From Pseudomonadota bacterium (lineage in GTDB: Bacteria > Pseudomonadota > Gammaproteobacteria > Burkholderiales > Burkholderiaceae_E), in the NCBI GenBank assembly GCA_029779435.1, contig JAKPAM010000262.1, positions 1 through 64,000 on the forward strand: a DNA stretch of 64,000 nt, read 5' to 3'. The notes beneath the pieces are model-generated. The model was not told the DNA's origin, ran no database searches, and was given only the letters and a program-made list of their open reading frames with translations. The position numbers and the translations under genes were made by a program. Of this stretch, positions 5,738-59,616 are shown piece by piece; position 1 is the first letter of the stretch; each line of letters begins with the position of its first letter.

Positions 5738-5824
5738 GGTCCGCCTTCTGAAAACAAAACAGGAATGGCCACGATCGTAGGAAAACGGTTCGATGAAGTA
5801 AAATGGTCTTATCTCACGTAATCA

Positions 5825-5837
5825 TGAATATTATTCA
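5825..5837. promoter_or_regulatory. MetR binding box in the metE-metR intergenic region
   Basis: TGAATATTATTCA matches the enterobacterial MetR consensus TGAA-N5-TTCA exactly. It lies 6 bp upstream of the metR ATG and 88 bp upstream of metE. From MetR biology this fits autorepression of metR and possibly activation of metE. Only one clear box was found. The metR start has no obvious Shine-Dalgarno, and the box occupies that position. Confidence 0.75.
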
Positions 5838-5843
5838 CTGAAT

Positions 5844-6749
5844 ATGCTGGAACGCATCCATCTGGCCGTCGTGCAGGAGGTCGAGAAACGGGGCTCGCTG
5901 ACCGCGGCGGCCGAGGTGCTGCACGTCACGCAGTCAGCGCTCAGCCACAGCATGAAGAAGCTGGAGCAGCAACTGGGCACCGACATCTGGCTGCGCGAGG
6001 GACGCAGCTTGCGGCTCACGCAGGCGGGCCAGTACCTGCTGGCCGTGGCCAACCGGGTGCTGCCGCAACTGAACCTCGCCGAGGAGCAGTTGCGCCAGTT
6101 CGCTCAGGGCGAGCGCGGCACGCTGCGCATCGGCATGGAGTGCCACCCTTGCTACCAATGGCTGCTGAAGGTCGTGTCGCCGTATCTGGCGGCCTGGCCC
6201 GACGTCGACGTCGACGTGAAACAGAAATTCCAGTTCGGCGGTATCGGTGCGCTGTTCGGGTACGAGATCGACTTGCTGGTCACGCCGGATCCACTGTTCA
6301 AGCCGGGGCTGAAGTTCGAGCCCGTCTTCGACTTCGAGCAGGTGCTGGTCGTCGCCAAAGGTCATCCGCTGGCCAGCGCCACGCACGTGAAACCGCAGCA
6401 GGTCGCGAAGGAGGTGCTGATCACTTATCCGGTCGACATCGAGCGGCTGGACGTCTACAACCAGTTCCTGCTGCCCGCGGGCATCACGCCCAGGCGCCAC
6501 AAGACGATCGAGACCACGGACATCATGTTGCAGATGGTGGCCAGCGGCCGCGGCGTGGCGGCGCTGCCGCGCTGGCTGGTCGAAGAGTACGCGGACAAGC
6601 TCGATATCGTGCCGGTGCGGCTCGGACCGCGCGGCATCGCCAAGCAGATCTTCCTGGGGGCGAGAGAGGCCGATGCGGCCATCGACTACATACGGGCCTT
6701 CGCCGAGCTTGCCCGCCATACCGCAGGGATCCGTTCGGCGACCGCTTGA
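5844..6749 (+). CDS. metR: LysR-family regulator of methionine synthesis
   Basis: A 301-residue LysR-type regulator. It has an N-terminal winged helix-turn-helix (SLTAAAEVLHVTQSALSHSM, residues ~17-36) and a C-terminal periplasmic-binding-like effector domain expected to bind homocysteine. Identity as MetR rests on position divergent from metE, the MERIHL/MLERIHL-type start, and a perfect MetR box in the shared promoter. The ATG at 5844 is used; no better upstream start exists in frame. The gene is followed by an unrelated GGDEF-EAL gene behind its own regulatory region. Confidence 0.93.
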   Translation: MLERIHLAVVQEVEKRGSLTAAAEVLHVTQSALSHSMKKLEQQLGTDIWLREGRSLRLTQAGQYLLAVANRVLPQLNLAEEQLRQFAQGERGTLRIGMECHPCYQWLLKVVSPYLAAWPDVDVDVKQKFQFGGIGALFGYEIDLLVTPDPLFKPGLKFEPVFDFEQVLVVAKGHPLASATHVKPQQVAKEVLITYPVDIERLDVYNQFLLPAGITPRRHKTIETTDIMLQMVASGRGVAALPRWLVEEYADKLDIVPVRLGPRGIAKQIFLGAREADAAIDYIRAFAELARHTAGIRSATA

Positions 6750-10879: not shown

Positions 10880-10935
10880 GAATGATTCGGCTATCCGAGG
10901 TCCACGGGCGGGGTTGATTGTCTCCCGGCAATAGA

Positions 10936-10956
10936 TTAAATTCAATTTAGATTTAA
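10936..10956. promoter_or_regulatory. Candidate TetR operator in the divergent promoter
   Basis: AT-rich palindromic DNA in a GC-rich setting: TAAATTCAATTTA (10937-10949, perfect 6-bp arms) lies inside the wider repeat TTAAAT-N9-ATTTAA (10936-10956). It sits between the divergent repressor (start 10879) and the fusion-protein gene (start 11013), where an operator would control both. Assignment to the adjacent regulator is inferred from position and symmetry. Confidence 0.55.
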
Positions 10957-11012
10957 GACGAATAAAGCAAAGCATCGACCTGCGTTCGCACTGATTCTCC
11001 AGGCACTCCCTC

Positions 11013-12017
11013 ATGACGAAGAAGCTGCTCATCATTGGCGTCCTGGCCATCGCGCTGCTCATCGGCGGCCTGCTCTGGTGGACGAACCGCGACACCGATG
11101 TCGCCACCGGATTGACCCTGTACGGCAACGTCGACATCCGGCAGGTATCGCTGGCTTTCGACGGCAGCGGGCGGGTCGCCGAATTGCGCGCCGAGGAAGG
11201 CGACAAAGTGCAGGCCGGAGCGGTGCTGGCCCTGCTGGATACCCGCACGTTGGCGCTGCAGGCGGAACAGGTCCGCTACCAGATCGGCGTGCAGCAGCAG
11301 GCCTTATTGCGTCTGCGCAACGGCTCGCGTCCGCAGGAGGTCGCGCAGGCCCGCAGCCGCGTGGTCGCGGCACAGGCCGACGCGTCGCAGGCCGAGGACG
11401 ACCTCGAACGTCTGCAAGGCATCGCGGCCAATACCCAGGGGCGCGGCGTCAGCGCACAGGATGTGAGCCGCGCCCGAACACGCCTGAGCGTCGCCCGTGC
11501 GAAGGTCGCGGAGCAGCGAGAGGCATGGCGACTCGCGCAATTGGGGCCGCGCGCCGAAGACGTGGCGGGGGCCGAGGCGCAACTCGACGCCGCGCAGGCG
11601 CAACTGGCCCTGCTGCGGCATCAGATCGCGCAAGGCGAACTCAAGGCGCCCGCCGATGCGATCGTGCGTTCGCGTCTGCTGGAACCGGGCGACATGGCGA
11701 CGCCCCAGCGGCCGGTCTTCGCATTGGCGTTGACGCAACCCAAGTGGGTACGCGTCTATGTCGGCGAACCCGAACTCGGCAAGGTGAGACCCGGCATGGC
11801 GGCCACCGTCGTCACCGACAGCCGCCCCGGCCAGCCCATCGCGGGCAAGGTCGGCGCGATCTCGTCGGTCGCGGAGTTCACGCCCAAGTCGGTCCAGACC
11901 GAGGAATTGCGCACCAGCCTGGTCTACGAGGTACGCGTGCTGGTCGACGATCCGCAAGACGTGCTACGCCTGGGGCAGCCGGCAACGGTCCACCTGGCGA
12001 TCGATGTCCGGCAATGA
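11013..12017 (+). CDS. ybhG: HlyD-family membrane fusion protein (YbhG-like)
   Basis: Periplasmic adaptor of a tripartite ABC efflux pump. The 334 residues begin with a single membrane anchor (LLIIGVLAIALLIGGLLWW), then a first lipoyl half (YGNVDIRQVSLAF), a long alpha-helical hairpin (about residues 90-200, Gln/Ala/Arg-rich), a second lipoyl half (GELKAPADAIVRSRLLEPG) and a beta-barrel. It is the first gene of an operon whose cistrons overlap or lie close together; the stop overlaps the ATPase start by 4 bp (ATGA). Named by family and by the gene order shared with E. coli ybhGFSR; substrates are likely amphipathic drugs. Confidence 0.88.
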   Translation: MTKKLLIIGVLAIALLIGGLLWWTNRDTDVATGLTLYGNVDIRQVSLAFDGSGRVAELRAEEGDKVQAGAVLALLDTRTLALQAEQVRYQIGVQQQALLRLRNGSRPQEVAQARSRVVAAQADASQAEDDLERLQGIAANTQGRGVSAQDVSRARTRLSVARAKVAEQREAWRLAQLGPRAEDVAGAEAQLDAAQAQLALLRHQIAQGELKAPADAIVRSRLLEPGDMATPQRPVFALALTQPKWVRVYVGEPELGKVRPGMAATVVTDSRPGQPIAGKVGAISSVAEFTPKSVQTEELRTSLVYEVRVLVDDPQDVLRLGQPATVHLAIDVRQ

Positions 12018-14937: not shown

Positions 14938-16050
14938 ATGTCCGTCATCCTCGCGTTCCTGTCGTCGATCGGCTTCCTGTGCCGAAAGGAACTGCTGGCG
15001 CTGTTCAAGGAACCCTCGAGCCGCGTGATCCTGTTCGCGCCCGCTCTGGTGCAGGCACTGCTGTACGGTTATGGCGCGACCTACGATCTGACTCATGCGC
15101 CTTATGCCGTGCTGGACCTGAGCCGGGGCGCCGCCTCGACCGAACTGCTGGCGCGTGTGGATGGCACGGGCGTATTCAAGCGCGAGGCCACTTTGACCGT
15201 GCCGGGGCAGATCGCGCGGGCAGTCGATCGCGACGGCGTGCTGCTGGTGCTGAACTTCCCCGCGGATTTCGACGCCCGGTTGGCCGGCGGCCAGCCGGCG
15301 CCCATGCAGATGATCCTGGACGGTCGCAACTCGACGACCGCCGCTGCGGCGGCGGCCCAGGTCAGCGCCATCGTCGCCGCTTATAACCGGCAGCATGCGG
15401 GCACCCCGGCAGTCAGCGTGGAGCGGCGCGCCTGGTACAACCCGAACCTCGAATCGCGCTGGAACCTGATGCCGGCGCTGATCGCCGCGCTAAGCCTGAT
15501 CCAGACCTTGCTGCTGGCCTCGCTGTCGGTCGCACGCGAGCGAGAGCAGGGCACGTTCGACCAACTGCTGGTGACGCCGCTGACGCCGATTCAGATCCTG
15601 ATCGGCAAGGCGTTGCCGTCGATGCTGGTCGGTCTGGCGCAGGCGACGGTGATCCTGCTGATCATCCGCTTCTGGTTCCACATACCGATGGCCGGCTCCC
15701 CGTGGCTGCTCTATCCGGGATTGCTGGTCTTCACCGGCGCCGTCGTGGGACTCGGCCTGTCGATTTCCGCGCTGTCGCTGAACATGCAGCAGGCCATGCT
15801 CTATACGTTCCTGCTGATCATGCCGATGATGCTGCTGTCGGGCCTGCTCACGCCGGTGAGCAACATGCCCGAACTCCTGCAACTGGTTACCTACGCCAAT
15901 CCGCTGCGCTTCGGCATGGACCTCGTGCGCCGCGTCTATCTCGAAGGGGCGGGGCTGCGCGAAGTGGCGTTCGATTTCGTTCCGATGTTGGCGATGGCCG
16001 CCGTCACGCTGCCGCTGGCAGCCTGGCTGTTTCGCAACCGCCTCTCCTGA
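14938..16050 (+). CDS. ybhR: ABC-2 type permease (YbhR-like)
   Basis: Second ABC-2 permease, 370 residues, with the same topology as its neighbour: N-terminal helix, periplasmic domain, five C-terminal helices, and the loop REREQGTFDQLLVTPLTPIQ. It lies 21 bp after the first permease with a Shine-Dalgarno upstream (gaggacggg). The two permeases are clearly paralogous but diverged, as expected for a heterodimer. The last helices carry PMMLLSGLLTPVSNMP, a family hallmark. Confidence 0.9.
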   Translation: MSVILAFLSSIGFLCRKELLALFKEPSSRVILFAPALVQALLYGYGATYDLTHAPYAVLDLSRGAASTELLARVDGTGVFKREATLTVPGQIARAVDRDGVLLVLNFPADFDARLAGGQPAPMQMILDGRNSTTAAAAAAQVSAIVAAYNRQHAGTPAVSVERRAWYNPNLESRWNLMPALIAALSLIQTLLLASLSVAREREQGTFDQLLVTPLTPIQILIGKALPSMLVGLAQATVILLIIRFWFHIPMAGSPWLLYPGLLVFTGAVVGLGLSISALSLNMQQAMLYTFLLIMPMMLLSGLLTPVSNMPELLQLVTYANPLRFGMDLVRRVYLEGAGLREVAFDFVPMLAMAAVTLPLAAWLFRNRLS

Positions 16051-52453: not shown

Positions 52454-55400
52454 TCAAGACTGCGGCGGCGCGGTCTCGACCTGCTGCAGCGGCTCGTCGG
52501 CCACGACAGCGCGCGGCTTGCGCCGGCGGACCGGACGCGGTGCGGGCGCGACTTCGGGCTCGGGCACGAATGCCGAGGCTTTGGTCTCGACCCAGGTCAG
52601 GCCCGCCTCGGACACGATGTCCTGCAGGCGTCCCGCCTCCGGGGCGGCGGCGTCGGTCGCCGCCTGGGCGGCCGACGCGACAGCGGCCGCCTGGGCTGGT
52701 GCCGGGCGGGCTGGCTGCTCCGCGGAGCCGGGTAGCGCCGTCGCGTCGAGCGAAGCCGTCGACGATCGTGCGGCGTCGGGCGTGGACGACACCGATGCCG
52801 GCGCGGAAGCGGCGACAGCAGGTGCCGGAGCTGCTGCAACGGCGGCGACCGGCGGCGTCTCGACGATCGGCGCAGGCGCCGGCGAGGAAACGGGCGCGAC
52901 GGGCCTCTCGGTCTCGACGCCGACGGCCGGGGAGGCCGGCTCGATCGCCGCGACACGTTGCGCCGGCCGTCGGGCTGGCGCCGGAGTGGCCTGTGCCGGC
53001 TCGACGTCCGATCCGGCGCTCGGCGCCAGCGGCTCGACTTCGGCGGCCTGGGTCACCACATCGACCTGGGCACTGACTGCCTGCTCCACGGCGACGGGCG
53101 CGAGGTCCGGCGACTTGGGGAACGGCCACGGAGGCAGGTCGGTGCTGAACGGCGACTCGATGTCCCGGTCGCGACGCCCGCCACGGCGACGGCGATTGCG
53201 GGGACGCCGCTGTTCGTCCGGTCCGGCGCCTTCGCCATGGAGCGGAGCCGATGCCTCGACACCGGTCTCGACGGTCTCGACGGTCTCGGTTATGGTCTCG
53301 GCGAGCGCCGCGGCGACGCCGGCCTCGGCATCGACCGGACGTTGGCGGTTATCGTCGCGTCGGCCGCGGTCTCCACGCGGGGGACGGCCCTCGCCACGGT
53401 CCTGGCCCTCGCGCGGCTCGCGTCCTTCGCGTGCCTCCCCGCGCCCTTCGCCGCGGGAGTCGGTCCGGCCCTCGGATCGGTTGTCGCGCCGGCTCTCTCT
53501 GCCTTCGCGGCCTTCGGTCCGGGCTTCTCTCGGCTCGCGGCCTTCGGCGCGCGGCTCTTTCGGTTCGCGGCCTTCGCCCCGGGGTTCGCGCGGCTCGCGC
53601 ACCGGCCGCTCCGCGGCCGCTTCGTTGCGCGGTGCACGCGGCGCGCGCGGTTCGCCTTGGCTTGCCTGTCCGTCACGGGCTTCACGCACCGTGCTCGCCC
53701 CATCACGGGCTTGCCCGTCGCGAGACGGTCGTCCGTCACGCTGGCGATCCGAACGTTGACGATCGGCGCGTTCCCCCCGTTCTCCCCTGTCCGAGCGGTC
53801 ACCGCGTTCGCCCCGGCCACGGCCCTGAGCGTCGCGCGCGCCTTCCCGAGGCGTACGGCCTTCGCGGGAGCGATCGTCACGCGCCCGGCGCGGCTCGCCT
53901 TCGGGCGACGTGGGCGCGGCCGGCACCTGGCGCGACGGCGTAGGTACGTCGGCACCGGTCACGCTGGCCTCGTTGGCGGCCTTCGGACGGAACCAGTTCA
54001 GGATGCGGCCGAGCAAGCCCTGGTCGCCGGAGTGCGGATCCATCGAATGGGCACTGGCAGCGCGAACGGGCACCGAAGTCTGGACCGGCGCAGCGGCGAC
54101 CGGCGCGGGCGCGGGGGCCGGTGCTGCCGGCATCGGCGCCGGCTGCGGCGGCGTCACACCCTTGACGACGGCTTCCTGCCGGGTCTTGGCCGGCTCGAGC
54201 TTGCGGTCGAGGTAGTCGTTGTCGTCGGTCGGGCCGTCGGCCAGCGAATAGCTGGCGCGGTACGACGCCAGGCGCTCGTCATCGTGGCGCAGGCGCTCGA
54301 GGCGGTAGTGCGGCGTCTCGAGGTACTTGTTGGGCACCATGACGACTTCGATCTTCGAGCGTGCCTCGATCTTGGCGATCTCGCCGCGCTTCTCGTTCAG
54401 CAGAAACGTCGCGACGTCGACCGGCACCTGGGCGTGGACGACGGCGGTGTTCTCCTTCATCGCCTCTTCCTGGATCACGCGCAGGCAATGCAGCGCCGAC
54501 GATTCGACGTCGCGGATCACGCCGGTGCCGTTGCAGCGCGGGCACGTGATGTGCGTGCCCTCGTTGAGCGCGGGACGCAGCCGCTGGCGCGACATCTCCA
54601 TCAGGCCGAAGCGCGAGATCTTGCCCGCCTGGACCCGTGCGCGGTCGTAGTGCAGGGCATCCTTGATCCGTTGCTCGACCTCGCGCTGGTTCTTGCTGCT
54701 CTCCATGTCGATGAAGTCGATGACGATCAGGCCGCCCAGATCGCGCAGCCGCATCTGGCGCGCGACCTCGTCTGCCGCTTCGAGGTTCGTGCGCAGCGCC
54801 GTCTCCTCGATGTCGGCGCCCCGCGTCGAACGGGCCGAGTTGACGTCGATCGCGACCAGCGCCTCGGTATGGTCGATGACGACGGCGCCGCCGGAGGGCA
54901 GCGGGACGATCCGCGAGTACGCGGTCTCGATCTGATGTTCGATCTGGAAGCGCGAGAACAGCGGAATGTCATCGCTGTAACGCTTGACGCGCTGGACGTT
55001 GTCCGGCATCACGTGCGCCATGAACTGGCGCGCCTGCTCGAAGATGTCGGCCGTATCGATCAGGATCTCGCCGATGTCGGCGGTGAAGTAGTCGCGGATC
55101 GCGCGGATCACCAGGCTGGATTCCTGGTAGATCAGGAACGGGCCGCCCGTGGTGCCGGCGGCCGAATCGATCGCGCGCCACAGTTGCAGCAGGTAGTTCA
55201 GGTCCCACTGCAGTTCTTCGACGCTGCGGCCGATGCCGGCGGTGCGCGCGATCAGGCTCATGCCCTGCGGGATCTGGAGCTGATCCATCGTGTCGCGCAG
55301 TTCCTGCCGGTCCTCGCCCTCGACGCGGCGCGAGACGCCGCCGCCGCGCGGGTTGTTCGGCATCAGCACGGTGTAGCGGCCGGCCAGCGAGATGAACGTG

Positions 55401-55750
55401 GTCAGCGCCGCGCCCTTGTTGCCGCGCTCTTCCTTGTCGACCTGGACGATCAGTTCCTGGCCTTCGCTGATCGCATCCTGGACGCGGGCCTTGCCGCCGT
55501 CGCCATTGCCGCCCTTCAGGTAGGCCTTGGAGATTTCCTTGAACGGCAGGAAGCCGTGGCGTTCCTCACCGTAATTGACGAAGCAGGCCTCGAGGCTGGG
55601 CTCGACGCGGGTGACGACGCCCTTGTAGATGTTGCTCTTGCGGGACTCGTGGCTGGCCGACTCGATGTCGATGTCGATCAGCTTCTGCCCATCGACGATG
55701 GCGACGCGCAACTCTTCCGAGTGCGTCGCATTGAAAAGCATGCGCTTCAT
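52454..55750 (-). CDS. rne: Ribonuclease E
   Basis: Main endoribonuclease and scaffold of the RNA degradosome. The 1098 residues start [20 protein letters not shown], followed by the S1 domain. The DNase-I-like catalytic domain has Asp in [12 protein letters not shown] near 302 and [11 protein letters not shown] near 345, and the zinc-link CPRCNGTG near 403 joins the dimers. The C-terminal ~550 residues are disordered: an Arg/Gly/Glu/Asp-rich block of repeats ([19 protein letters not shown]) and then Ala/Pro/Val-rich sequence, ending in a basic patch. Such tails bind RNA and partner enzymes but vary freely. The start at 55750 fits E. coli Rne; an upstream in-frame ATG at 55771 is unlikely. 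The stop lies inside the TTGAC flank of element copy A. Confidence 0.96.
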
Positions 55751-56292
55751 TTGGAATACGTTCTCCGGCACAGAGTGCGCGATCTGTGCGCATCGTCGGG
55801 AGCCCGAGGAGTCGAACGAGCGTCGAGTTCAGACCCGCCCGGAAAGGGCGGGCGGCAACGCATGGCGCCGTGAGCTCTGGCACGCGCCACGTCGACCCTG
55901 GCGGCGCGCGTCTGGACGAGCGACGGCAGCGCAGCGAGGCAGGGCGGAGGTGGGAGTCAAGGCACGCATGAACCGCGGTTTCTTGTCGACACCAGCGATC
56001 GGCGACGGGCGCCGATGGCGGTCTTGTTCGTTCCGGCTCGGAATTCGGGTATCCCGCGTTCCCGGTCGATCGAGCGAAGGCCGATGCGACGCGGGAACCG
56101 CGTTACAAAATTGTTCTTGCGGTCCGTTCGAGCGCAGGGGGCCGGTAGAATGGCTAATCCCGACCCACCAGCACATCGATCGCCGGCACACCGGTGTCGG
56201 CGTGCGCTTTTGGCGACACCGATCGGCGACGGATCGCCAGTGGCTTGCGACGCATCCTGCATTTGTGCGGACAGCCGGCAAAGTATAGCAAG
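55751..56292. other. Divergent rne/rluC region with a long rne leader
   Basis: About 540 bases, the largest gene-free stretch of the window, between divergent rne and rluC. On the rne side a 7-bp stem CCCGCCC-N5-GGGCGGG lies at 55834-55852, some 85-100 nt before the rne ATG. RNase E genes are known for long 5' leaders with hairpins that tune their own decay, so an autoregulatory leader is likely here. Around 56100-56155 an AT-rich patch (gttacaaaattgttcttg) could hold promoters. No open reading frame here has coding character. Confidence 0.5.
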
Positions 56293-57396
56293 ATGAAAGT
56301 CTTACGCCCAGAAGCTCATAATTCGCCCGCAAGTGCGCCGACAAACGGTCGATCCGGCGGCCAAACGGCATCAAGTCCGCCGGAATCGGCCGACGGGCAG
56401 GCCCACGCGCGGACCGATGCGCAGGTCGCCTACGTCGATATCGACGAGAGCGCGGCCGGCCAGCGCCTGGACAATCTGCTGATCCGGCTGTGCAAGGGGG
56501 TTCCCAAAAGCCACCTGTATCGGCTGATCCGCAGCGGGCAGGTCCGCCTGAACGGCAAGCGCTGCACGGCCGATGCCCGCCTGGCGGAGGGCGATCGCGT
56601 GCGCCTGCCGCCGATGCGCCGGGCCGAGCCCAGCGCGGCGGCGTCGGCGCCTCCGGTCGAATTCCCGGTCATCTTCGAGAACGACGGGCTGATCGTCATC
56701 GACAAACCCGCCGGCGTGGCCGTGCACGGCGGCAGCGGCGTCTCCAGCGGCGTGATCGAGCAATTGCGCGCCGCCAGGCCGCAGGCCCGGTTCCTCGAAC
56801 TCGTGCACCGGCTCGACCGCGACACGTCCGGCGTGATGATGATCGCCAAGAAGCGATCGGCCCTGGTCGAGCTGCAGCGGCAGTTGCGTGAGCGCCTGTC
56901 GGACAAGCGCTACCTGGCGATCGTGCTGGGCCGCTGGCCGCTGCGCAGCAAGCGCCTGACCGATCCGCTGTACAAATTCGTGACGCCGGAAGGCGAACGC
57001 CGCGTGATGGTACGTGCCGACGGCCAGTCCGCCGCGACGACGGTGACCGGCCTGCGCCATGCATCGCTTCCGGGCGTCGGTATCTGTACGCTGGTCGAAT
57101 GCCGGATCGAGACCGGCCGGACCCACCAGATTCGCGTCCATCTGAGCCACGCCGGTTTTCCGTTGCTCGGCGATGAGAAATACGGTGTCTTCGATTTGAA
57201 TAAATCACTTGATAAAATGGGTCATAAACGTATGTTTTTGCATGCTTTCTCTTTGACGATAAGAGAGCCTCTGAGCGGCAGTACGCAGCGATTCGTCTCG
57301 CCGATGCCCGATGCGTTCGAGGGGTTCCTGGATGCAGGCGCGGCCGCTGCGCCCGGCGAAGCTCAGCGAGTCGCCGGCGGCCGGGGGCATCGATGA
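56293..57396 (+). CDS. rluC: 23S rRNA pseudouridine synthase
   Basis: RluC makes pseudouridines at 955, 2504 and 2580 of 23S rRNA in E. coli numbering. The 367 residues contain an N-terminal disordered stretch of ~45, an S4 RNA-binding domain (RLDNLLIRLCKGVPKSHLYR) and the synthase domain with the catalytic Asp in LVHRLDRDTSGVMM near 178 and the RTHQIRVHLSHAG motif. Codons from about 57178 to 57270 are AT-rich and rare for this genome (AAA, TCA, CTT, ATA, AGA) though the protein stays conserved (YGVFDLNKSL). The divergent rne neighbour is the usual arrangement. The stop overlaps the next gene by 4 bp. Confidence 0.94.
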   Translation: MKVLRPEAHNSPASAPTNGRSGGQTASSPPESADGQAHARTDAQVAYVDIDESAAGQRLDNLLIRLCKGVPKSHLYRLIRSGQVRLNGKRCTADARLAEGDRVRLPPMRRAEPSAAASAPPVEFPVIFENDGLIVIDKPAGVAVHGGSGVSSGVIEQLRAARPQARFLELVHRLDRDTSGVMMIAKKRSALVELQRQLRERLSDKRYLAIVLGRWPLRSKRLTDPLYKFVTPEGERRVMVRADGQSAATTVTGLRHASLPGVGICTLVECRIETGRTHQIRVHLSHAGFPLLGDEKYGVFDLNKSLDKMGHKRMFLHAFSLTIREPLSGSTQRFVSPMPDAFEGFLDAGAAAAPGEAQRVAGGRGHR

Positions 57397-58139
57397 CGGC
57401 TGCCTTCCCCGAAACGGACCGCGCCAGCGAAGAAGCCGGTCGCCTCGCCGAGGCCTTTTCGGCCGCCTTCGATCTGGTCGTCTTCGATTGGGACGGGACG
57501 CTCGTCGACTCGACCGGCGCGATCACCGAATCGATCCGCGGGGCCGCCGCCGATCTCGGCCTGGCGATCCCCACGCGCGAACAGGCGAGCCACGTCATCG
57601 GCCTGGGGCTGCACGACGCGTTGCGCCTGGCCGTGCCCGACTTGTCGGTCGAGCGCTTGCCCGCCTTCGTCGAACGATATCGGTTCCACTTCCTGAAGCG
57701 CGATCAGAATTTCCTGCCGTTCGAGGGCGTCAGCGACCTGCTGGCCGAGCTGAACGGATCGCGCCAATGGGTCGCGATCGCCACGGGCAAGTCGCGCGTG
57801 GGCTTGAACCGGGGTCTCGAACAGATGGGGTGGCAGCGCCGGTTCATCACCACCCGTTGTGCCGACGAGGGTCGCCCCAAGCCGGATCCGTGGATGCTGC
57901 TCGACATCTGCGAAGAACTGGGCGTGTCCCCGGCCCGCGCGGTGATGATCGGCGATACCACGCACGACCTGGGCATGGCCCGCGATGCGGGCGCGGCGTC
58001 GGTCGCGGTCACCTACGGGGCGCACCCCCATGCCGAACTGGATGCGTTCGGTGCGACCGCGATCGTGCATTCGGTGACGCAGTTGCGCGATTGGCTCGTT
58101 CCCCGTCTTCGCGTGTCAGGCGAGGGCGTCGCGGAGTGA
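57393..58139 (+). CDS. HAD-family hydrolase (phosphoglycolate phosphatase-like)
   Basis: A 248-residue HAD subfamily IA phosphatase. Motif I is VVFDWDGTLVDST, motif II IATGKSRVG, motif III the Lys in EGRPKPDPWM and motif IV VMIGDTTHDLGMARDAG. The cap is the small helical type of Gph-like enzymes. In many betaproteobacteria a HAD gene sits exactly here between rluC and sppA, but its substrate is not established. The start overlaps the rluC stop (ATGA). Confidence 0.9.
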   Translation: MTAAFPETDRASEEAGRLAEAFSAAFDLVVFDWDGTLVDSTGAITESIRGAAADLGLAIPTREQASHVIGLGLHDALRLAVPDLSVERLPAFVERYRFHFLKRDQNFLPFEGVSDLLAELNGSRQWVAIATGKSRVGLNRGLEQMGWQRRFITTRCADEGRPKPDPWMLLDICEELGVSPARAVMIGDTTHDLGMARDAGAASVAVTYGAHPHAELDAFGATAIVHSVTQLRDWLVPRLRVSGEGVAE

Positions 58140-58546
58140 CCGGCGATGAGGGCGTGCCGCCGCCGCCGGCCGGCAGTGTTCCGCCCGGATGGGGATGGCG
58201 GTCGGTGTGCGCGTCGACGGCACTCGTCGAACGCGGGGCCGGTGTGCGCTTCGCGTGGCCGGGGCAAGGGCGCTCCGAATGGCCCGCGTTCGTCGTGCGG
58301 GCCGATGGGCGCCCGAGCGCGTTCCTGAATCGATGCGCGCACGTACCGGTCGAACTGGACGGCGAACCCGGGCGGTTCTTCGACGATGCCGGCCTATACT
58401 TGGTTTGTGCGACGCATGGTGCGTGCTATGACGCGGCGAGCGGATTGTGCGTCGCGGGCCCTTGCCGGGGTAAGCGCTTGAGCGCGTTGGACGCGATCGA
58501 GCATGACGGCCGGGTCTGGATCCTGATGAACCTCGAGATACGATGA
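58136..58546 (+). CDS. Rieske [2Fe-2S] ferredoxin-like protein
   Basis: A 136-residue soluble Rieske protein with the cluster motifs CAH near residue 67 and CATHGACYD near 92, giving the two Cys and two His ligands. The disulfide cysteines of the bc1 Rieske protein are not both in place, so it fits the ferredoxin-type group. The GTG start at 58136 overlaps the HAD gene stop, and its own stop overlaps sppA. Its electron partner is unknown, and its conservation in this operon is unexplained. Confidence 0.88.
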   Translation: MTGDEGVPPPPAGSVPPGWGWRSVCASTALVERGAGVRFAWPGQGRSEWPAFVVRADGRPSAFLNRCAHVPVELDGEPGRFFDDAGLYLVCATHGACYDAASGLCVAGPCRGKRLSALDAIEHDGRVWILMNLEIR

Positions 58547-59616
58547 TGGAAGACGATTACCAGCCTATCCGCGCAGGCACCCGCGACACGCCCCGCGACA
58601 ACCCCTCGATCCGCGAGGTTCCCGGCGATACCCCGCCCCGGCCGCCGCACGGCGCGGGCAATGGCGAAGCGCCGGGCTGGGAGCGCGGCGTGATCGAAAA
58701 GCTCGCGCTGGGCCTCGTGCAGGAAAAACGCCGAGCACGGCGCTGGGGCATCTTCTTTCGGCTCGTCTATCTGGTCCTGTTCGTCGGCGGCGCACTGCTG
58801 CTGCTGGGCCGCAGTTCGTTGACGGGCGGCGATGACATCGCCAAGGGCCGCCACACGGCTCTGGTCGAACTCAGTGGGGTGATCGCCTCGGAGGGCGAAG
58901 CCAGCGCCGACAACCTCAGCACCGCGCTGCAGAGCGCGTTCAAGGACCGCAATACCGCCGGCGTCGTGCTGCGCATCAACAGCCCCGGCGGCAGCCCGGT
59001 GCAGGCCGGCATCGTGCACGACGAGATCCTGCGCCTGCGCGCCAAGTACCCGAAGGTGCCGCTGTATGCGGTGGTCGAAGAAGTCTGCGCGTCGGGCGGC
59101 TACTACGTGGCCGCGGCCGCCGATCGGATCTTCGTCGACAAGGCGAGCCTGGTCGGGTCGATCGGCGTGCTGATGGATGGCTTCGGCCTCGTCGGCATGC
59201 TCGACAAGCTGGGCATCGAACGCCGGCTTTTGACCGCGGGCCGCAACAAGGGTTTCCTCGACAGCTTCTCGCCGATGGAGGAGCAGCAGCGGCAGTACGC
59301 GCAAAAGATGCTCGACGAGATCCACCAGCAGTTCATCGAGGTGGTCCGCAAGGGGCGCGGCGATCGGTTGAAGGAAACCCCCGATACGTTCAGCGGCCTG
59401 GTCTGGACGGGCTCGCAGAGCATTGGCATGGGGCTGGCCGACGACTATGGCACGGTCAACTCGGTGGCGCGCGACGTGATCAAGGCCGAATCCGTCGTCG
59501 ACTTCTCCACGCGAGAGAACGTCGCCGAGAAGCTCGCGCGGCGGTTGGGCGCGCGCACCGCGGACAGCTTGGCCAACGGCCTGCGCAACGCGGTCGAGGC
59601 ACCGCGTCTGCGCTGA
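58543..59616 (+). CDS. sppA: Signal peptide peptidase SppA (S49 family)
   Basis: Membrane-anchored peptidase degrading cleaved signal peptides. The 357 residues have one N-terminal helix (FFRLVYLVLFVGGALLLLG), the S49 core LRINSPGGSPVQAGIVHDEI, the nucleophile Ser in CASGGYYVAAAADRIF and the general-base Lys in AGRNKGFLDSFSP. The length is that of the half-size, tetramer/octamer-forming type and not of the 67-kDa E. coli enzyme. The first Met overlaps the Rieske stop. Confidence 0.93.
   Translation: MMEDDYQPIRAGTRDTPRDNPSIREVPGDTPPRPPHGAGNGEAPGWERGVIEKLALGLVQEKRRARRWGIFFRLVYLVLFVGGALLLLGRSSLTGGDDIAKGRHTALVELSGVIASEGEASADNLSTALQSAFKDRNTAGVVLRINSPGGSPVQAGIVHDEILRLRAKYPKVPLYAVVEEVCASGGYYVAAAADRIFVDKASLVGSIGVLMDGFGLVGMLDKLGIERRLLTAGRNKGFLDSFSPMEEQQRQYAQKMLDEIHQQFIEVVRKGRGDRLKETPDTFSGLVWTGSQSIGMGLADDYGTVNSVARDVIKAESVVDFSTRENVAEKLARRLGARTADSLANGLRNAVEAPRLR

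Follow-up and report, generated by a model that had tools for sequence, protein, structure and literature searches.

Sigma-70 promoters that serve part of an operon can lie inside coding sequence, near the 3' end of the upstream gene; prs of E. coli, for example, is read from inside ispE. Clusters of rare codons are thought to slow translation. 'Promoter islands' rich in AT, and spurious promoters in genes acquired horizontally, are described in the accessible parts of two reports (PMC7054387, PMC7229825).

The element considered here is an AT-rich patch inside rluC, found in the window, by which the whole 64,000-nucleotide stretch of DNA that was analysed is meant. Like promoters of the prs/ispE type, the patch has AT-rich, promoter-like hexamers in coding DNA and lies about 160 bp before the next co-directional gene. 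Unlike them it is unusually AT-rich, shifts the amino acids of the protein and has been kept in five genera, its hexamers being imperfect. It resembles a rare-codon cluster in being a run of codons rare in its gene, and differs in also shifting codon positions 1 and 2 and amino acids. With promoter islands, as far as they are set out in the accessible text, it shares AT-rich DNA with promoter-like sites; the difference is that its host is a core gene and not a foreign one, and that its core, about 57 bp long, keeps the same codon position from genus to genus. No mention of an element inside rluC was found in the accessible part of the open literature, where many matches to 'rluc' concern the luciferase reporter.

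Gene context and composition of the patch

The locus and the patch have the following features.

56293-57396, + strand: rluC, RluA-family 23S rRNA pseudouridine synthase, host of the patch (TIGR00005, 241.6 bits; cut-off 192.7)
57178-57270, + strand: AT-rich codon patch (GC3 0.35 vs 0.86; same codons in 21 of 66 family loci)
57193-57249, no strand assigned: element core, third bases mostly A/T in carriers (per-site A/T fraction, 21 carriers)
57393-58139, + strand: HAD-family phosphatase (gph-like), proposed first target (HAD_2, 112.7 bits)
58136-58546, + strand: Rieske [2Fe-2S] protein, proposed co-target (PF00355, 34.8 bits)
58543-59616, + strand: SppA-like signal peptide peptidase, proposed co-target (Peptidase_S49, 122.5 bits)
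52454-55771, - strand: rne (RNase E/G family), divergent neighbour, context only (RNase_E_G, 329.4 bits)

The open frame of rluC is intact. The encoded protein has an S4 domain and a PseudoU_synth_2 domain (residues 133-286), and the patch encodes residues 296-326, directly C-terminal to the latter. Its best match is the RluC model NF008249, yet the score of 298.7 bits is below the cut-off of 378. The names gph and sppA likewise denote family resemblance with equivalog scores under the cut-offs: the gph-like protein scores under the cut-off of the phosphoglycolate phosphatase model, and the SppA-like protein reaches 141.1 bits against TIGR00706 (cut-off 155.45). Elsewhere in the window, ARAGORN called a tRNA-Val (gac) at 11387-11485 on the - strand, which at 99 bases is unusually long for tRNA-Val and possibly a false call.

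Read in the rluC frame, the codons from 57178 to 57270 have a GC3 of 0.35 and a GC content of 0.34, compared with 0.86 and 0.70 in the remainder of the gene. The 80-bp GC minimum of the whole window starts at 57173 (0.325; runner-up 0.35 at 5778). The AT-rich, rare-codon patch described in the first-pass annotation is thus borne out. At window sizes of 50, 100 and 120 bp dips near 5.7 kb are equally low, as is one at about 10.9 kb for the 50-bp size; these two other AT-rich places of the window (5746-5845 and 10930-11029) look like intergenic promoter regions. Internal 75-bp dips were compared over 132 ORFs, mechanically called in the window and in 10 contigs of at least 3 kb out of 20 fetched from the same genome. 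The patch was lowest (0.31), followed by 0.37 at window position 10911, where the ORF call is not trusted, and then 0.43.

The patch had originally been delimited as 57177-57270. The constrained core is narrower (57195-57249). Over the 21 carriers defined below, third bases are mostly A/T from 57193-57195 to about 57249 by per-site A/T fraction, and just upstream of the core TAC at 57181 and TTC at 57190 remain C-ending.

Distribution among relatives

rluC loci were collected by protein searches of 61 genomes and of the window's family (67 of 74 genomes matched at 1e-60, seven did not) and completed with fetched stretches. G080 and G007 (partial rluC) were left out and G021 contributed two loci, so that 66 family loci represent 65 genomes. 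Of the 61 new loci outside the family, from order-level genomes, 21 came from the search itself and 40 were fetched. The cut defining carriers was chosen after the values were seen; the weakest carrier is L071 (z -3.1), and L054 (z -3.0, patch GC 0.67) was not counted.

By this cut the patch is present at the same codons in 21 of 145 rluC loci, all within the family (21/66 family loci, five genera; 0/79 loci outside). The carrier genera are g1, to which this genome belongs, g5 and g13 (one genome each), g2 (9/9) and g15 (9/9 examined, out of 12 genomes, three others being without a usable rluC). GC3 at the patch codons drops by 0.22-0.53 in the 21 carriers (84 loci compared: 66 family, 18 outside). 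Over the full set of 145 loci, GC falls by 0.22-0.37 in carriers and by no more than 0.165 in any of the 124 others. Of all 25-codon windows of the gene, the one lowest in GC begins at the patch in 21/21 carriers and in 9/124 others. Among the 61 further loci from other families of the order, none had a z below -3 (lowest -2.8).

Its occurrence in independent genomes from other genera means that the patch is no artefact of assembly, and the concern that it might be confined to this assembly does not hold. Normal GC3 in relatives had been named as a sign of a one-off neutral recombination. It was seen in 45 of the 66 family loci, but the other 21 carry the patch.

The most GC-rich carriers have weaker patches (L025, L044, L055 and L058; GC3 0.55-0.61). 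In carrier genome G016 (L074), the lowest 57-bp GC of the patch (0.44) falls within the ordinary lower tail of 255 genes from a 400-kb sample that did not include its own rluC (5% quantile 0.42, 25% quantile 0.49). This result counts against exceptional AT-richness as a general claim; in the window's own genome the patch is extreme. G021 has two rluC loci on separate contigs (L012, L082), neither with the patch, which may reflect mixed strains or a duplicate.

Level of constraint

GC of the patch at codon positions 1, 2 and 3 is 0.51, 0.24 and 0.42 in carriers, compared with 0.65, 0.43 and 0.79 in the 45 family non-carriers, and the rest of the gene has nearly the same GC in both groups. Lys replaces Arg in the patch, Lys/(Lys+Arg) being 0.69 in carriers vs 0.21 in family non-carriers. 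The RluC protein pattern, which had been taken as kept, is retained in outline, but carriers also shift to amino acids with AT-rich codons. That codon positions 1 and 2 and the choice between Lys and Arg shift as well points to the nucleotides.

The exact sequence is mostly not conserved. Compared between genera, the patch has a codon identity of 0.50 and the remainder of the gene one of 0.51, with two codons near-fixed in carriers as exceptions (CTT at 57208, 20/21; TTT at 57235, 18/21). Patch sequences are genus-specific, with ACT-TTA in 8/9 g2 and CTT-AAY in 9/9 g15 loci. Outside the patch, the synonymous similarity of the gene is close to random (codon identity 0.514 vs 0.454 in random draws), which makes neutral survival of the patch, or one recent import, unlikely. 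In a very GC-rich gene, the patch is AT-rich at a fixed place in five genera; thus the DNA itself, and not only the protein, seems to be preserved, and we infer selection as the cause. Selection on the nucleic acid, as first proposed, is well supported by this same-codon occurrence within one family.

The element is real, conserved and nucleotide-level, and lies inside coding sequence; if it is an intragenic promoter, it is of a known kind. It is a clear case of a signal in the nucleotides that seems to take precedence over codon usage in a core gene, and even over the choice of amino acids.

Phylogenetic history

A quick tree was built from four genes (rne, rluC without the patch, gph and sppA; 1118 columns) and replaced a single-gene tree that was poorly supported at depth. 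Carriers fall on several early branches of the family, requiring at least 4 changes, of which 3 are forced by well-supported branches. Carriers as one clade were rejected (p-AU 0.009; simple model, quick tree). We read this as one old gain followed by several losses, with repeated gains as the alternative. On this reading the 3' part of rluC would contain an old cis-acting element that purifying selection has held in several early-branching genera and that others have lost. Because one family contains natural carriers and non-carriers, gain, loss and function can be compared directly.

A candidate intragenic promoter

The core is interpreted here in terms of sigma-factor consensus sequences and UP elements. 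Three putative parts were distinguished.

57193-57208, + strand: AT-rich part upstream of the -35-like hexamer, possibly UP-element-like (by composition and place only)
57209-57214, + strand: -35-like hexamer TTGATA (CTT codon at 57208 kept in 20/21 carriers)
57231-57236, + strand: -10-like hexamer TATGTT (largely forced by Arg-Met-Phe codons)

With a 16-bp spacer between the hexamers, these parts would make up a promoter from which transcripts start inside rluC for the downstream HAD phosphatase, Rieske and sppA genes. We tentatively regard an old, conserved cis-acting element of this kind, a sigma-70-like promoter feeding these three genes, as the most likely reading; function, direction and targets are all putative. 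Among the options of the first-pass annotation, an internal promoter for gph fares best, on sequence resemblance.

TTGATA-N16-TATGTT (57209-57236) matches the consensus at 9 of 12 positions; 4 kb hold two sigma-70-like sites including this one, where 0.3 are expected. An upstream part followed by -35 to -10 fits the span of the core. Over about 1 kb, the top-ranking + strand site is the best one of the patch in 12/21 carriers and 3/63 non-carriers. CTT before GA is kept in 20/21 carriers, and the Leu codon at 57238 varies (TTA, CTT, TTG). Letters of both hexamers (CTT-GA, CGT-ATG-TT) are retained in the weak-patch carriers L025, L055 and L058 and lost in L044. Co-directional genes follow the patch in most carriers (gph match in 20/21, sppA match in 19/21).

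The scores by position are less clear. The best site is at a shared position in 11/21 carriers, and the same holds for 23/63 non-carriers. Promoter scores at this position average 7.07, compared with 6.30 +/- 0.53 in composition-matched codon draws (32/500 as high), which is suggestive and not proof; that the matched draws are only modestly exceeded counts against a promoter. Also against it, the protein largely dictates the -10 half, L044 offers no convincing site (score 0.3), and in several g2 carriers the score is below 5.2. Non-carriers whose genes follow in the same order manage without the patch, L060 (g2) keeps it without a gph match, and g2 genomes have further AT-rich DNA before gph. 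Finally, the patch is AT-richer than the rne-rluC divergent region in 19/19 carriers measured, and its AT-richness seems to go beyond the need of an ordinary promoter.

If the patch is a promoter, it is wrong to treat rluC, gph and sppA as one transcription unit in the carrier genera; if it is not, the patch is an unexplained conserved DNA element.

By eye, a stretch of the form ATGCAAnAATGnC recurs between rluC and gph in g2 loci L070, L072, L074 and L076, where it is possibly a gph promoter of its own. In L060 the sppA match starts about 110 bp past rluC. Two other promoter types were considered and rejected. A minus-strand promoter scored lower and inconsistently (58/500 draws as high), and a sigma-32-like reading, made by eye, does not fit the five g15 carriers with CTTCA.

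Alternative explanations

A less probable reading is that AT-richness itself is functional, as a binding site for some regulator or nucleoid protein that would act on the region of rne, rluC and gph. AT composition and not exact sequence is conserved, as the codon identities above indicate, the patch exceeds the local promoter region in AT content in all 19 carriers measured, and A and T are balanced over all patch bases (601 T, 593 A). In its fuller form, for which we also see only a minor chance, an element of about 57 bp would have stayed at one codon position since early family history, with AT content selected strongly enough to alter amino acids, and would be no ordinary promoter but a DNA-binding or genome-organising site near rne and rluC. 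Against such a site, no second copy was found in the window's own draft genome (84% completeness; other matches at most 19 bases, E at least 1.05). H-NS is an unlikely partner and is not required, because only 15/21 carrier genomes have an H-NS-family protein over the family cut-off; G000, G004, G012, G075, G081 and G082 do not, an absence that is uncertain in draft genomes, and most non-carriers have one. Helical phasing of A/T tracts is not convincing. An autocorrelation looked promising, but its main peak lies at 11.5-12 bp, and for plain AT power 195 of 400 codon draws were as high at 10 bp and 320 at 10.5 bp. In favour of phasing are plain AT power at 11 bp (20/400 draws as high) and the power of A/T tracts, which 1, 2 and 10 of 400 draws reached at 10, 10.5 and 11 bp respectively.

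Improbable, in our estimate, is slow translation, in which a conserved rare-codon cluster would give the RluC domain time to fold ahead of synthesis of the C-terminal part. The position of the patch directly after the PseudoU_synth_2 domain would suit this, and codons that these genes otherwise seldom use are frequent in it: TTA occurs 21 times in the patches, whereas none of the 657 Leu codons elsewhere is TTA. A/T-ending codons are rarer than expected (z -10.9; -4.9 without Leu), values that ignore relatedness and are mixed with AT preference, because TTA is also the most AT-rich Leu codon. A pause, however, needs no shift of amino acids or of codon positions 1 and 2, both of which are seen, and conserved Arg is most often CGT (12/21), which is not a rare Arg codon.

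We give marginally less credence to a tract without function, which would have come from an AT-rich donor, or been passed repeatedly between lineages, and not yet have drifted back. Repeated imports would also give carriers that are not one clade in the four-gene tree, and the weaker patches of the most GC-rich carriers are in keeping with drift. The patches are, however, genus-specific and between genera no more alike than the rest of the gene, and they occur in every g2 and every examined g15 locus. By arithmetic, about one third of synonymous memory is left per lineage, so that even an ancestral patch with GC3 of 0 would now be near 0.55; carriers average 0.42. The one-off recombination that had been offered as an explanation does not agree with the spread over genera, the genus-specific sequences and the near-random synonymous similarity elsewhere.

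Least probable is an AU-rich, weakly structured mRNA stretch at which RNase E would cleave, or some other processing occur, between rluC and gph: rne is a neighbour and mean folding energy over the patch columns is -20.3 kcal/mol in carriers vs -31.1 in non-carriers, but for its composition the patch is no less folded than shuffles (mean z -1.10, singles -4.3 to 0.9; if anything slightly more folded), sits in translated RNA and shows no third-position T:A shift towards A. Nothing found points to the RNA-processing site that had been suggested, with no Rfam match at gathering threshold in the 64-kb window and no conserved RNA structure over the patch (consensus fold energy -0.65 for one strand, 0.0 for the other).

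No overlapping ORF is open through the patch in all 21 carriers; the shortest open stretch is 3-13 codons in each of the five other frames. Out-of-frame stops in frame +2 number 3.10 per carrier vs 2.60 in draws (21/1000 as high), a marginal difference uncorrected for relatedness. In carrier genome G016, an AT dip was also observed at L123:14844-14918 in the 3' part of an ispE-like gene, just before a tRNA-Gln at 14968, and is possibly another intragenic promoter.
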